The notes under the pieces were generated by a model. It worked only from the letters and a program-made list of their open reading frames with translations, made no database searches and was not told where the DNA came from. Positions 20,719-26,057 of a stretch of DNA of 64,000 bases are shown here, in pieces (within the stretch, counting starts at the first letter, position 1; each line of letters opens with the position of its first letter). The stretch is taken from assembly GCF_023221595.1 (NCBI RefSeq), contig NZ_CP096563.1, positions 726,501 to 790,500 of the forward strand, in the 5' to 3' direction. The stretch is from Rhodococcus qingshengii JCM 15477 (lineage in GTDB: Bacteria; Actinomycetota; Actinomycetes; Mycobacteriales; Mycobacteriaceae). Position numbers and translations under genes: made by a program.

Positions 20719-21660
20719 GTGACTTCCTTCGGGATCACTAATGGACCTGCACCTGCGCGATTGACGGTAGGAATTGTCTCCGCAGGCCGGGTCGGAACAG
20801 CTGTCGGTGCCGCATTGGAGCGAGCCGGTCATGTTGTCAGCGCTTGCTCCGCCGTTTCCAGCGCCTCGGTTGCCCGCGCTGTGAAGCGGCTTCCCGATAC
20901 CGAAATTCTTCCGGCTGCCGACGTCGCAGCTCGTTCCGAGTTGCTGATTCTCGCCGTTCCTGACGATCAACTTGCGGATCTTGTTCGAGGTCTGGCGGCC
21001 ACCCATGCCGTCAAGCCCGGCACGCTCGTCGCCCATACGTCCGGTGCCAACGGGATCGCGATCCTGACTCCACTCACCGAACTGGGCGCACTGCCCCTGG
21101 CTATCCATCCGGCGATGACGTTCACCGGTCACGACGAGGACACCGCACGGCTGTCGTCGGCCTGCTTCGGAATCACCGCTGCCGACGACATCGGTTACGC
21201 GATCGCGCAGTCACTGGTCCTCGAGATCGGCGGCGAGCCCGTCCGAGTGCGCGAGGAGAACCGCGCGCTCTACCACGCCGCACTGGCTCACGGCAGTAAT
21301 CACCTGGTCACGCTCGTGGTCGACGCCGTCGAGGCACTGCGAGCGTCGTTGCAAGGTGACGAGCTGCTCGGTCAGCAGTTGGTCGACGGCGATCCGGGTG
21401 GAGTGGCCGAGCGAGTCCTGCAGCCGCTGCTGTCGGCGGCCTTGGACAACGCGCTACGACGCGGTCCCTCGGCGTTGACCGGCCCGGTGGCACGCGGCGA
21501 CGCTGCTGCCGTCGACACACATTTGCGCGTACTGACAGACCTGGATCCGGAGCTCGCTGCCGGCTATCGGGCGATGTCCTTGCGATCGGCCCAGCGGGTG
21601 GGCGCCCCCACCGAATTGTTCGACATCTTGACTGAAACGGGAGGTGACCGTCGTGAGTGA
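20719..21660 (+). CDS. Rossmann-fold / DUF2520 domain protein
   Basis: 313 residues from GTG 20719 with AGAGGA upstream. An N-terminal NAD(P)-binding fold ([22 protein letters not shown], glycines at about 22-26) resembles the ProC/KPR fold, followed by [17 protein letters not shown] and a C-terminal DUF2520 helical region. It overlaps panC by eight bases and matches Rv3603c. A dehydrogenase acting in or near pantothenate synthesis, for example on ketopantoate, is possible from context alone; it is not shown by the sequence. Confidence 0.82.
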
Positions 21661-22612: not shown

Positions 22613-23059
22613 ATGTTTCGCACGATGATGAAGTCGAAGATCCACCGCGCCACCGTGACTCACGCCGACCTGCATTACGTCGGCTCCGTCACCGTCGACC
22701 AGGATCTGATGGACGCCGCAGACCTCCTCGAAGGCGAACAGGTGTGCATCGTCGACATCGACAACGGTGCGCGTCTCGAGACGTACGTCATTGCCGGCGA
22801 GCGCGGAACTGGTGTCATCGGAATCAACGGTGCGGCAGCGCATCTGGTCAAGCCAGGCGACCTGGTCATCCTCATCGCCTACGGCGTGATGAACGAGCAG
22901 GAAGTCAAGGAGTACTCCCCGCGCGTAGTCTTCGTCGATGCCGACAACAAGCAGATCGAACTCGGCTCCGACCCGGCTCACGCGCCGGAGGGTTCGGGTC
23001 TGATCACCCCACGCATGCTGTCGACGCTCGAGGCCTCGCGCGAATCCAGCCTGGTGTAA
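22613..23059 (+). CDS. panD: Aspartate 1-decarboxylase (proenzyme)
   Basis: Makes beta-alanine for PanC. 148 residues from ATG 22613. The self-cleavage site G24-S25 in HYVGSVTVD, which generates the pyruvoyl group, is intact, as are [14 protein letters not shown] and INGAAAHLV. The C-terminal tail after about residue 120 is longer than in enterobacteria, as in mycobacteria. It is separated from coaX by three bases. Confidence 0.96.
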
Positions 23060-23062
23060 TCC

Positions 23063-23878
23063 ATGCTGCTCACGGTCGACGTCCGGAACACCAACATCGT
23101 TCTCGGTCTGTTCTCCGGGACTGGTGAGTATTCGAAGCTGTTGCAGGACTGGCGAATGCGAACCGATCCTCGGATGACTGCCGACGAATTGGCGTTGACC
23201 TTCCGTGGGCTGTTGGGTTCTCATGTCGATCAGATCACCGGCGTTGCGGCGCTGTCGACAGTGCCGTCCGTCTTGCGTGAAATCCGTGTGATGCTCGAGC
23301 GGTACTGGGGTCACGTTCCCCATGTGGTGGTCGAACCGGGTATTCGCACCGGTGTGCCACTGCTGGTGGACAACCCCAAAGAGGTGGGAGCCGACCGGAT
23401 CGTCAACAGCCTTGCCGCTCACCATCTTTACGAGGGGCCATGCATTGTCGTGGACTTCGGTACGTCGACCTGTGTCGACGTCGTTTCCGCCAAGGGTGAG
23501 TTTCTGGGCGGCTGCATCGCGCCCGGACTCGAGATCTCGACCGATGCCTTGGCGTCGCAGTCCGCTGCGCTGCGCAAGGTCGAATTGGTGCGCCCGCGTT
23601 CGGTGGTCGGCAAGAATACCGTCGAATGCATGCAGTCCGGTGCGGTATTCGGCTTTGCGGGCCTCGTCGACGGATTGGTCAACCGCGTCCGCGACGAACT
23701 ACCGGAGTTTGGTGGTGACGACGTCTCCGTGATCGCGACCGGGGACAGCGCACCGCTGATCATTCCCGAGTCCGACACCATCGATCACCTCGAACGGGAC
23801 CTCACCCTCGAGGGGCTGAGGTTGGTCTTCGAGCGCAATCAGGCGCGTCGTGGATCCGGTCGACGACCCGTCGCCTGA
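23063..23878 (+). CDS. coaX: Type III pantothenate kinase
   Basis: First step of CoA synthesis from pantothenate. 271 residues from ATG 23063. The phosphate motif reads [10 protein letters not shown], with Arg where most families have Gly; the same variant occurs in the mycobacterial protein and so is not a defect. Other motifs: [54 protein letters not shown]. Last gene of the pantothenate cluster. Confidence 0.95.
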
Positions 23879-23922
23879 TCGATGGTTTCGTTCCAGCGGT
23901 TTCGCGATTGCAAAAGTTATGC

Positions 23923-23928
23923 CACAAT
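23923..23928 (+). promoter_or_regulatory. Predicted -10 element for the cysteine dioxygenase operon
   Basis: CACAAT (23923-23928) ends seven bases before GTG 23936, the same geometry as the predicted leaderless GntR promoter at 13031. A -35 box is not convincing. It predicts a transcript starting at the first codon of the short Cys-rich reading frame. Confidence 0.4.
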
Positions 23929-23935
23929 GGTGCTC

Positions 23936-23977
23936 GTGAATCGCTGCATGGGTGCTCAGGAGTGTTGTCGAGGCTGA
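23936..23977 (+). CDS. Short Cys-rich reading frame: candidate leaderless cysteine-attenuator leader peptide
   Basis: A 13-codon frame from GTG 23936 to TGA 23977 encodes MNRCMGAQECCRG: three cysteines in 13 residues, two of them adjacent near the stop. No Shine-Dalgarno precedes it, and a -10-like box sits at leaderless distance. It ends 39 bases before the start of a cysteine dioxygenase gene. Cys-rich leaderless short frames that sense cysteinyl-tRNA supply through ribosome stalling are known upstream of cysteine-related operons in mycobacteria. The 10-bp self-complementary stretch GAGCTAGCTC (24007-24016) covers the downstream ribosome site. An in-frame ATG at 23927 is an alternative start. 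Confidence 0.6.
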   Translation: MNRCMGAQECCRG

Positions 23978-24016
23978 CCGCTGCCTTGACCAATTCACAT
24001 TCCTTGGAGCTAGCTC

Positions 24017-24658
24017 GTGCTATCCACATATTCTGCAGATCTCTCTGTTTTGGCCCCGACTCTTACTGCTGACCGTGCTGTTTCCGCAGGTCGTAGCGCT
24101 AACCGTGGGGCGTCCGGACGTCGCCCGAGTGGTGCGTCGTTGCCTACCCGCCTTCGCCCGGCCGATCTGCTGCGTCTGACCGACGAGGGAGCAAACGGCG
24201 TGCTCGACGGCCGTTTCGATCACCTCATCCCCGACACCTTCCCGACGCTCGACCGTTGGTCCACCCGCTTGCACGCGGACGACGACGTCGATGTGTGGCT
24301 CATCAGTTGGGTGCCCGAACGCAACACCGAATTGCACGACCACGCAGGCTCGTTCGGTGCCTTGACCGTCCTCAGTGGTTCGCTCACCGAATTCCGTTGG
24401 GCCGGTGACTCCCTGGTGGAACGCCAGCTCGACGCCGGCGATCAGGCTTCGTTCCCGCTCGGATGGGTTCACGATGTCGTGCGTTCGACGGATGCTCCCG
24501 GTGCTCCGATCGAAATCAGCTCTGATGCACCGACTCTGAGTGTTCACGCCTACTCGCCGCCGCTGACGGCAATGTCCTTCTACGAAGTGACGGATCACCG
24601 GACACTTCGCCGCACCCGTACCGAGCTGACCGACCTGCCCGAGGGGGGCACCAAATGA
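24017..24658 (+). CDS. Cysteine dioxygenase-type cupin enzyme
   Basis: Non-haem iron enzyme predicted to oxidise cysteine to cysteine sulfinate, lowering excess cysteine. 213 residues from GTG 24017 with GGAG upstream. The iron triad is visible as H107-D-H109 in ELHDHAGSFG and H152 in GWVHDV, within a cupin barrel (about 75-190). The first 45 residues are low-complexity and may include an over-long start. Four-base overlap with the rhodanese gene indicates one operon. The Cys-rich short frame upstream supports a cysteine role; a different thiol substrate such as 3-mercaptopropionate cannot be excluded. Confidence 0.85.
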   Translation: MLSTYSADLSVLAPTLTADRAVSAGRSANRGASGRRPSGASLPTRLRPADLLRLTDEGANGVLDGRFDHLIPDTFPTLDRWSTRLHADDDVDVWLISWVPERNTELHDHAGSFGALTVLSGSLTEFRWAGDSLVERQLDAGDQASFPLGWVHDVVRSTDAPGAPIEISSDAPTLSVHAYSPPLTAMSFYEVTDHRTLRRTRTELTDLPEGGTK

Positions 24659-25077
24659 CCATCGACCAAATGCTCGACGACGCTCGCGCACAGATCGATC
24701 GTATGTACGTCTTCCAGCTCACCGAAGCCTTCCACCGCGGCGCGCTCTTCGTCGACATTCGCCCGCAGGCGCAGCGCGCCATCGAGGGAACTCTTCCCGG
24801 TGCACTCGCGATCGAGCGGAACGTGCTCGAATGGCGCCTCGACCCCACCAGCAGCGCGCACCTCGCGTTGGCCACCGACCACGACGTCGAGTGGGTGATC
24901 GTCTGCTCCGAGGGTTACACCTCGAGCCTGGCCGCAGCGTCGTTGCAGCAGTTGGGTCTGCACAAGGCCACCGATCTCGTGGGTGGATACCAGGCGATCA
25001 AGGCCGCCGGCCTGCTCGGTGCGCTCAGCGGAGTGCGTCATTGCTCCCGCGAGTTGGCGGCGGTTTCGGCTCATTGA
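24655..25077 (+). CDS. Rhodanese-domain sulfurtransferase
   Basis: 140 residues; a single rhodanese domain. The fold starts at LFVDIRPQAQR (about 31-41) and the catalytic loop VIVCSEGYTSS places the persulfide-forming cysteine at C84. The start ATG overlaps the cysteine dioxygenase stop by four bases. The likely role is handling of sulfane sulfur linked to cysteine breakdown. Only eight bases separate its stop from the palindrome at 25085, a probable terminator. Confidence 0.87.
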   Translation: MTIDQMLDDARAQIDRMYVFQLTEAFHRGALFVDIRPQAQRAIEGTLPGALAIERNVLEWRLDPTSSAHLALATDHDVEWVIVCSEGYTSSLAAASLQQLGLHKATDLVGGYQAIKAAGLLGALSGVRHCSRELAAVSAH

Positions 25078-25084
25078 GGTATTT

Positions 25085-25130
25085 GCTGTGCGCCTTTATT
25101 AACCGCGGGCGGTTAATAAAGGCGCACAGC
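25085..25130. repeat. 46-bp near-perfect palindrome, copy A (dispersed element / bidirectional terminator)
   Basis: Perfect 22-bp arms (25085-25106 and 25109-25130) around a 2-base centre. The 20-nt core of the left arm is GCTGTGCGCCTTTATTAACC. The same 46 bp with one base changed occurs at 50147-50192. It lies between convergent genes and supplies the stop codon of the broken AraC gene (TAA at 25101-25099, minus strand). There is no T-run beyond the arms. Confidence 0.9.
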
Positions 25131-26057
25131 GGGTCTGGCGGTACATCTTCGGGCTCATTCCGTGATGACGGGTGAACGCGGTTGTGAGGGCAAAGGGGCT
25201 CGAGTAGCCCACTTCTCGCGCGATCGACGACACCGTTCGTGCCGGGTCTGCGAGCAGATCTGCCGCCACGGACAGTCGCCACTCGGTCAGATAGCCGACG
25301 GGTCCGATCCCCATGAGGCTGGTGAACCGGCGCGCGAAGGCTGCTCGTGAACTGCCGGACTCCTGGGCCAGGCTCGCGACCGTCCAGGGGTGTTCCGGCC
25401 GATTGTGTATGAGCCGCAAGGCATGCCCGATGACGGGATCCTCGTAGGCCTTGATCCATCGCGGTGATCGATTCGGGTTCTCGGCGAACCAGGTCCGGGC
25501 CGCTGAGATCAGGACCAGGTCCAGGAGCCTGTCCAACAACACTTCCTGTCCGGGCCCGTCGGCGGCGATCTGTTGTTCCAGAAGGTTTGTCATCGGCGCG
25601 GTTTCGATGCTGCGTCGTACTACCGCGACGGGTGTCAGGCTGTCGAGGATCTGACGGCTGACATAGGAGTCCAAACGGTATGTGCCCGTGAGCATGACGG
25701 TCTGACCACTGGTCGAGTTGCCCCAGGTGCGAATGCCGTGAACTGACATGTCCTCGAGTGGTGATCCGTCGACCGCAGCGCAATTCTGTGCTTCGTCGAT
25801 CAGTACGTGGACTGGTGTGTCGGGTGATCGGCGACCGTATACGGATCGGGGCCGCGCAGGAGTGCAACGTCGCCGGCCTCGAGATCTTCTGTCTGTCCGG
25901 TGTCGGAGACGACGACCGCGCTGCCTCGAACCAGAACCAGCACGGTGATCGGTGCGTGGTCCTCGATACGTAATGACCACGGTGGATCGAGCAGCGAGCG
26001 CAGTAGAAAAGCGCCCTCCGCCCGCGATCCGGCCAGCATCATCGACAATGCATCCAT
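25099..26057 (-). pseudogene. AraC-family regulator with cupin sensor domain, disrupted by a frameshift
   Basis: The N-terminal cupin part starts at ATG 26057 (MDALSMMLAGSRAEGAFLLR) and stays open to a stop at 25800; the remaining cupin and the AraC helix-turn-helix lie in another frame (from about 25830 down to 25099). The two parts join naturally at GPDPYTVAD / DTPVHVLIDEAQNC, around 25822-25827, if one missing base is restored. The C-terminal part has two AraC HTH motifs (WTVASLAQESGSSRAAFARRF and the segment ending FALTTAFTRHHGMSP). It was probably the regulator of the divergent gene at 26138. A sequencing error is an alternative. Confidence 0.78.

Follow-up and report, generated by a model that had tools for sequence, protein, structure and literature searches.

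Why would a gene for a cysteine-destroying enzyme be preceded by a very short reading frame that ends in a pair of cysteine codons? A locus of Rhodococcus qingshengii JCM 15477 raises this question, and it was analysed within a stretch of 64,000 nucleotides (the window). The original prediction for this DNA was a leaderless, Cys-rich frame that tunes cysteine oxidation by feed-forward control, with the dioxygenase gene as its target. Our answer is that the short frame is real, far from a chance occurrence, and that, judged from sequence comparison, it is a conserved and structured Cys-codon leader. We consider it rather probable that this leader controls translation of the dioxygenase-rhodanese operon, with translational control that is probably ON at low cysteine. 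The operon is an unexpected one for a Cys leader, and the kind of control is already known from mycobacteria. The case for the leader is built from the conserved frame and its Cys pair, the spacing of the -10 box, the fold and its covariation, computed opening energies, and the retention of the leader before rhodanese genes. The genes and sites concerned are the following.

20719-21660: protein with a Rossmann-like domain and DUF2520 (profile match)
ending at 23878, upstream of the leader: coaX, type III pantothenate kinase (PF03309)
23923-23928, + strand: -10-like box CACAAT, 7 nt 5' of the leader GTG (read from the sequence)
23936-23977, + strand: leader frame GTG...TGA, MNRCMGAQECCRG, 13 codons plus stop, probably leaderless (sequence and recurrence in relatives)
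23963-23968, + strand: codons TGT TGT for Cys10-Cys11, the proposed sensor (107 of 120 distinct dioxygenase loci have two Cys codons side by side)
24006-24009, + strand: Shine-Dalgarno GGAG of the dioxygenase gene, mostly inside helix P1b (sequence and fold)
24007-24016, + strand: GAGCTAGCTC, self-complementary, abutting the dioxygenase GTG at 24017 (sequence)
24017-24658, + strand: putative thiol dioxygenase of the cysteine dioxygenase type, 213 aa, GTG start (CDO_I, PF05995, E 5.7e-12)
24655-25077, + strand: rhodanese, overlapping the dioxygenase stop (PF00581, E 2.3e-10)

Direct reading of the letters agrees with the frame as first described (GTG at 23936, TGA ending at 23977) and with a -10-like box at leaderless distance. 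On both strands of the 64-kb window, this is the sole frame that matches a mechanical rule combining a short frame, adjacent Cys codons near its stop and a -10-like box at leaderless distance. In the 7.5-Mb genome, the ECCRG-stop motif occurs once as an exact match, and allowing one mismatch adds two sites, the same number as a reversed control.

The frame was described as holding three cysteines. The adjacent pair stood, being kept in 23/23 same-genus loci, whereas the Cys at codon 4 is found in 20/23. The dioxygenase is present in 23 of 28 same-genus genomes, and every one of these loci has the GTG, the Cys pair and a stop two codons later. Across the family, 214 of 301 genomes have a dioxygenase match, and we examined 120 distinct dioxygenase loci drawn from 17 genus handles (g1 and so on). 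The 107 loci with a short frame carrying adjacent Cys codons near its stop become 97 of 110 once ten motif-selected loci are removed; those lacking it are in g7 (1/1), g9 (4/9) and g19 (8/8). Among 61 distinct leader peptides the first half is variable and most end in ECCRG, with CCR, CCRA, CCRP, CCRR, CCRRI, CCRSI, CCGA, CCPA and MCCC as other endings. Cys codons kept while other positions drift, the pattern expected of a sensor in the original prediction, are therefore what the adjacent pair displays, in the genus and in the family.

Searching by motif gives the same partners. In 397 genomes of the order, the motif pattern has 16 matches, 15 of them before a dioxygenase or rhodanese (L052 differs in sequence). 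A named genome collection contains at least 119 motif stretches. Among the 80 matches listed, 63 have a dioxygenase and a rhodanese downstream, five a dioxygenase only, ten a rhodanese only, and two have too little room; a dioxygenase or rhodanese is thus next in 78/78 listed matches with enough room. The genera among these 80 are Nocardia, Rhodococcus, Rhodococcoides, Prescottella, Aldersonia, Speluncibacter and Williamsia, plus one labelled Kitasatospora. The leader and rhodanese of this last locus (L261, labelled Kitasatospora arboriphila) closely resemble those of Williamsia, pointing to a mislabelled sample or a transfer.

Outside the main leader type, the picture is more varied. Four of 20 dioxygenase loci from other families (L203, L214, L216, L217) have a longer frame whose tail, close to the stop, reads FDECC or FDETCC, and two further loci of the 20 end in C-x-C. 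The longer frames of L203, L214, L216, L217, L212 and L213 share a FW..RR....FDE..C(x)C tail, a different leader with the same partner operon. In g19 (L092-L099) the Cys pair is found at 0/8 dioxygenase loci, and two of these (L098, L099) are preceded by a frame that has one Cys ahead of its stop. Before genes that are dioxygenase-like, frames ending QKCCLR occur in g24 (L177-L179, 3/3) and an ECCRG frame in g28 (1/1); a Cys-pair frame is absent in 3/3 from g21.

The start of the leader is also conserved in its surroundings. Of 100 distinct upstreams, 74 carry a [TC]ANNNT box exactly 7 nt ahead of an in-frame start and another 15 carry one at 6 or 8 nt; the box is missing in 11. In a control, the same spacing occurs at 1.5% of 1526 positions, and a fair baseline is a few percent because several starts were allowed per locus. 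This spacing fits leaderless transcripts and leaderless translation, and from it we infer the leaderless start.

Codon choice at the pair may matter too. Outside the eight main fold genera, TGT is used at 19/22 first and 19/22 second positions of the pair, against a baseline of 12 TGT and 59 TGC in the window's long frames of high GC3. A slow wobble codon such as UGU would suit a sensor. It is also possible that the bias comes from RNA constraint below detection; two genera outside those eight (g2, g25) do show a fold.

That the next gene is of the cysteine dioxygenase type was borne out by its PF05995 match. The motifs GWVH, S-[VI]-HAYSPP and HDH are present in 120/120 family dioxygenase loci, and the nearest solved chains bear the name cysteine dioxygenase; no NCBIfam family scored above its cut-off. 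A rhodanese follows the dioxygenase in 119/120 loci, the remaining one ending at a contig edge, and its loop Cys is present in 119/119 of these copies. The dioxygenase core is free of Cys in 110/120 family loci. We had considered this as support for expression during starvation and dropped the argument, because dioxygenase cores of other families are equally Cys-free (20/20). No comparable Cys leader that fits was found before the sulfite/nitrite reductases or other rhodaneses of this genome.

How could a 13-codon frame affect the gene behind it? In the RNA, the predicted fold joins the leader frame to the ribosome site of the dioxygenase gene through three helices (P1 with its extension P1b, P2 and P3), which are built as follows.

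23946-23953, + strand: 5' arm of P1, GCATGGGT (codons 4-6), pairing with 24013-24020 (fold and covariation)
23954-23957, + strand: 5' arm of P1b, GCTC, pairing with GAGC at 24007-24010 over most of the GGAG (window RNA fold)
23958-23965, + strand: 5' arm of P2, pairing with 23997-24004 (fold; 89.2% of cells paired over 51 leaders)
23967-23974, + strand: 5' arm of P3, GTCGAGGC, pairing with GCCTTGAC at 23983-23990, the leader stop codon in the loop
23983-23990, + strand: 3' arm of P3, GCCTTGAC (fold and covariation)
23997-24004, + strand: 3' arm of P2, adjoining the Shine-Dalgarno (fold and covariation)
24013-24020, + strand: 3' arm of P1, GCTCGTGC, covering the dioxygenase start codon (fold and covariation)

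The palindrome noted earlier over the ribosome site, GAGCTAGCTC, is present in the window and is the source of P1b and part of P1, but as a palindrome it recurs in only 10/23 same-genus loci. More widespread is base pairing between the short frame and the ribosome site. In the window, P1 has 8/8 pairs (G-U counted), and the RNA 23936-24060 folds at -42.7 kcal/mol, with a z of only -1.97 (7/200 shuffles as good).

Relatives provide a further test of the pairing. In 51 distinct leaders that only a short gap separates from the gene, 90.4% of cells are paired over 22 pairs, and 41 cells have changed on both sides compared to 16.7 in shuffles. The covariation score is 0.217 against 0.176 +/- 0.006 when shuffled (0/500), and at most 0.104 after sliding by 1-3 columns; the count of further pair types is not above shuffles (24 against 24.0). 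Because relatedness inflates the shuffle control, we prefer the slid control and named events as evidence. For example, GAGC:GCUC has its counterpart in GGGA:UCCC in g6, an ACG faces the start codon at its P1 position only with GTG starts (11/11), and P3, with 94.4% of cells paired over the 51 leaders, has A-U changed to G-C in 7/51. Unaided, RNAalifold proposes P3 only, and Rfam 15 gave no covariance-model match up to E 1 in 23000-25600. Two genera (g23, with L037-L045, L106-L108 and others; g22, with L102-L104, L123 and L124) have additional sequence, able to form hairpins, after the leader stop and ahead of the ribosome site. Their gap is lengthened to 60-69 nt, and P1 still pairs in many.

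We then asked what a ribosome on the leader would do to this fold. Opening cost here means the energy needed to open a stretch that begins 14 nt before the first base of the next gene and ends 6 nt after it. Placing a ribosome at the first Cys codon lowers the mean calculated cost from 16.2 to 7.8 kcal/mol in g1 and from 19.4 to 7.4 in g10, and leaves it level in g29 (7.6 against 7.5). A drop of more than 2 kcal/mol is found in 81/106 distinct loci and the reverse in none. Part of this drop is built in, because masking upstream RNA only removes pairing partners, and for that reason a leader-shuffle control was run. In the window, the cost is 16.8 against 9.4 +/- 1.3 kcal/mol for shuffled leaders (0/60 as high). 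Over 29 loci, 14 have 0/60 shuffles as high, two have 2/60, and 13 do not stand out (one g1, three g6, one g16, two g11, one g9 and all five g29); these 13 keep the Cys pair. Mean unpaired probability of the Shine-Dalgarno was set aside in favour of opening energies: it was lower in the stalled state in many loci, a misleading sign because weak local hairpins persist in truncated RNA.

A 31-nt footprint was also slid along 80 core leaders. The calculated cost is 15.1 kcal/mol without a ribosome and 7.2-7.9 for ribosome positions between five codons upstream and two codons downstream of the first Cys codon. The lowest value lies most often five codons before the pair (37/80), so the pair is not the single best position; it lies inside the open stretch, near its end. 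By the usual distances of ribosome footprint edges, the 29 nt from P1 to P3 correspond to about one footprint. Taken together, a pair within the open stretch and a footprint-sized 5' strand favour opening by stalled ribosomes, with expression when cysteinyl-tRNA is scarce.

The mechanism that we propose runs as follows. The transcript would begin at or beside the GTG, and a ribosome would start directly at its 5' end. If cysteine is ample, this ribosome would pass Cys10-Cys11, reach the stop and leave; the freed RNA would fold back, and the three helices would hide both the start codon of the next gene and its Shine-Dalgarno (OFF). A shortage of cysteinyl-tRNA would keep the ribosome waiting on the two UGU codons. 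Its footprint of about 29 nt would cover 23946-23974, the 5' strand of the fold, so that the downstream ribosome site would stay single-stranded (ON). The rhodanese, which overlaps the dioxygenase stop, would follow dioxygenase expression. From the same evidence, we infer translation of the leader, stalling at low cysteine and the direction of the response.

This direction is opposite to that first proposed. The leader interpretation as such found support, in a Cys-codon frame that is conserved, probably leaderless and followed by a sequestered ribosome site; its feed-forward logic found none. When a ribosome is placed on the Cys codons, the dioxygenase site opens in the folding calculations, and this predicts expression at scarcity. 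On the other hand, it is physiologically odd that a scarcity of cysteine should switch on an enzyme that oxidises it, and this counts against our main reading. Feed-forward control suits such an enzyme: at plentiful cysteine, ribosomes that finish the leader would be delivered by coupling to the dioxygenase 39 nt downstream, and the operon would be ON. The stop-to-start distance is 39-43 nt in many loci, and a ribosome at the stop keeps the site partly open in the 80 core leaders (8.9 vs 15.1 kcal/mol). However, the calculated site re-closes once the ribosome has moved one codon beyond (10.8), distances of 56-85 nt also occur, and the leader persists before rhodaneses without a dioxygenase. 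We regard feed-forward control as unlikely.

This last observation concerns the target of the leader. In two same-genus genomes with no dioxygenase match (G007, G014) and in 9/9 genomes of g27 without a dioxygenase at the locus (several with a distant PF05995-like match elsewhere), the leader stands directly before the rhodanese, which contradicts the idea of the dioxygenase as its constant target. The same arrangement is seen in g31 and, at a second locus found by motif, in g19. In g14 the ECCRG end is kept in 4/4 with a less clear start, g8 has frames ending CCC (2/2), and paralogous rhodaneses in g9, g11 and g17 follow frames ending SCQECCQG, SCLECCQG, SCQECCRG and SCPECCRA. Two g10 genomes (G127, G139) have a fragment-like dioxygenase match only and keep the leader. 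In g4 (8/8), g3 (2/2) and one locus each of g12 and g18, the 260 nt ahead of the rhodanese contain no Cys-pair frame. Where the leader precedes a rhodanese directly, the fold outperforms shuffled leaders in G007, G014, g27 and three g14 loci (z 2.7 to 6.7), and is no better than they are in g31, g19 and three scorable paralogs. In the sequences compared, the rhodanese is thus the more constant partner of the leader than the dioxygenase.

Among these rhodaneses, the loop Cys position is Ser in g27 and g14, and Ser or Gly in the paralogs. Specifically, leader-preceded copies without a dioxygenase in front (L165-L172 and L047 of g27, L173-L176 of g14, and L199-L202) have Ser or Gly at the catalytic Cys position; the Cys is retained where dioxygenase loss looks recent (L163, L164, L144, L145).

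Three further explanations keep the leader region and change how it acts. In the first, the nascent peptide would arrest the ribosome at high free cysteine (or through a metal or oxidant), as TnaC does. QECCRG is nearly invariant in the main genera, and ECC recurs where the window-type fold was undetected. Yet elsewhere the endings CCR, CCC, CCGA and CCPA, and short frames such as MCMCCR, share little beyond the Cys pair, and arrest by the peptide seems to us improbable, to the same degree as feed-forward control. The second holds that the Cys codons steer a terminator or Rho access and leave the ribosome site aside. P3 is indeed a stable hairpin immediately 3' of the Cys codons, but a consensus scan found no terminator-like hairpin in 23886-24100 (the sole hit in 23850-25200 is at 23868-23885, upstream), and we think such transcription attenuation very unlikely. 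The weakest, to which we give scarcely any credence, is a conserved RNA element (one that binds a protein or metabolite, or a plain closed ribosome site) with an untranslated frame: the sequence around the Cys pair hardly varies and lies largely within helices, but start codon, -10 spacing and frame recur, the pair by the stop survives without a detected fold and in 4/20 other-family loci, 24/61 distinct peptides carry a further Cys, and Rfam has no match.

If translational control that is ON at low cysteine is the right reading, its oddity calls for an account of the enzyme. We suggest, tentatively and with a good deal of doubt, that this 'cysteine dioxygenase' may be no valve for excess cysteine and may belong to the response to cysteine scarcity. 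Starved ribosomes would open an RNA lock that belongs to the rhodanese, and a thiol dioxygenase and a rhodanese would be made, perhaps so that sulfite could be freed from persulfides or from thiols other than cysteine and then re-assimilated; these genomes prefer UGC, and their conserved UGU-UGU pair would be tuned to be slow.

Known leaders offer several points of comparison. In translational attenuation of the ermC type, a ribosome stalled on the leader frees the next ribosome site, and the signal is an antibiotic. The same freeing of the next gene's site is proposed here, with aminoacyl-tRNA shortage as the signal instead. Attenuators of the trp type act through a terminator and have codons for the sensed amino acid near the stop; our leader likewise has such codons beside its stop and the stop codon in a hairpin, but the consensus scan found no terminator between leader and gene. 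TnaC, the tryptophanase leader, arrests at high tryptophan through a conserved peptide. Like TnaC, the present leader is rich in the amino acid that the downstream enzyme consumes; unlike it, little is common beyond the Cys pair, and opening is predicted at low cysteine.

The nearest relatives are the leaderless polycysteine short frames of mycobacteria, reportedly described by Canestrari et al. in 2020. According to excerpts of the literature on them, these frames regulate through cysteine-dependent elongation, that is, ribosome speed (PMC9031893), Cys-rich short frames precede cysA2 and nirA (PMC4633059), and six frames of this type are discussed for M. tuberculosis (PMC9094748). As far as these excerpts go, the resemblance lies in a short, probably leaderless frame, contiguous Cys codons, a sulfur gene next, and translation of that gene depending on the elongation speed that cysteine sets, which we propose here as well. 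In contrast to the frames so described, there are two Cys codons here and not a run, the leader frame itself would be what pairs with the start codon and the ribosome site, and a cysteine-oxidising enzyme would be the first target. The literature searched, a scope outside which most subscription papers lay, contained no paper on a leader before a cysteine dioxygenase.

Published expression data concern genes of these kinds in two cases. A protein like that encoded at 20719-21660 is, we assume, what is called PanG. In a report on R. qingshengii IGTS8, the gene of that name is peg4968 (PMC8557817), and this number suggests that the present operon would be numbered nearby and that peg751 and peg1918 are other rhodaneses. 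Both go down in Table 1 of the same report, which covers sulfur-metabolism proteins changed more than 4-fold in sulfur starvation and lists no cysteine dioxygenase; their match to the present operon is uncertain. We count the lack of a cysteine dioxygenase in this table against the operon being ON at low cysteine. The decrease of the two rhodaneses looked like a further argument against it, one that weakens if, as the numbering suggests, they are other rhodaneses. According to excerpts on Gordonia NB4-1Y, this strain has more transcript of a cysteine dioxygenase and of four sulfurtransferases when grown on sulfonates than when grown on sulfate (PMC7661421), which would fit the proposed control.

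If the leader acts as proposed, cysteine-codon control would extend from mycobacteria to Rhodococcus, Nocardia and allied genera, in a compact RNA whose pairing is testable base by base. The prediction is sharp and surprising: a gene named for destroying cysteine would be switched on when cysteine is scarce. Were it true, the usual account of the dioxygenase's role would be incomplete; were it false, a Cys leader would work opposite to its known relatives. Either outcome is informative.

Finally, the far end of the operon has a feature of its own. Right after the rhodanese gene, at 25085-25130, lies a perfect 22-nt inverted repeat with a 2-nt gap and arm middles rich in A+T, which is possibly a two-way terminator or an operator.
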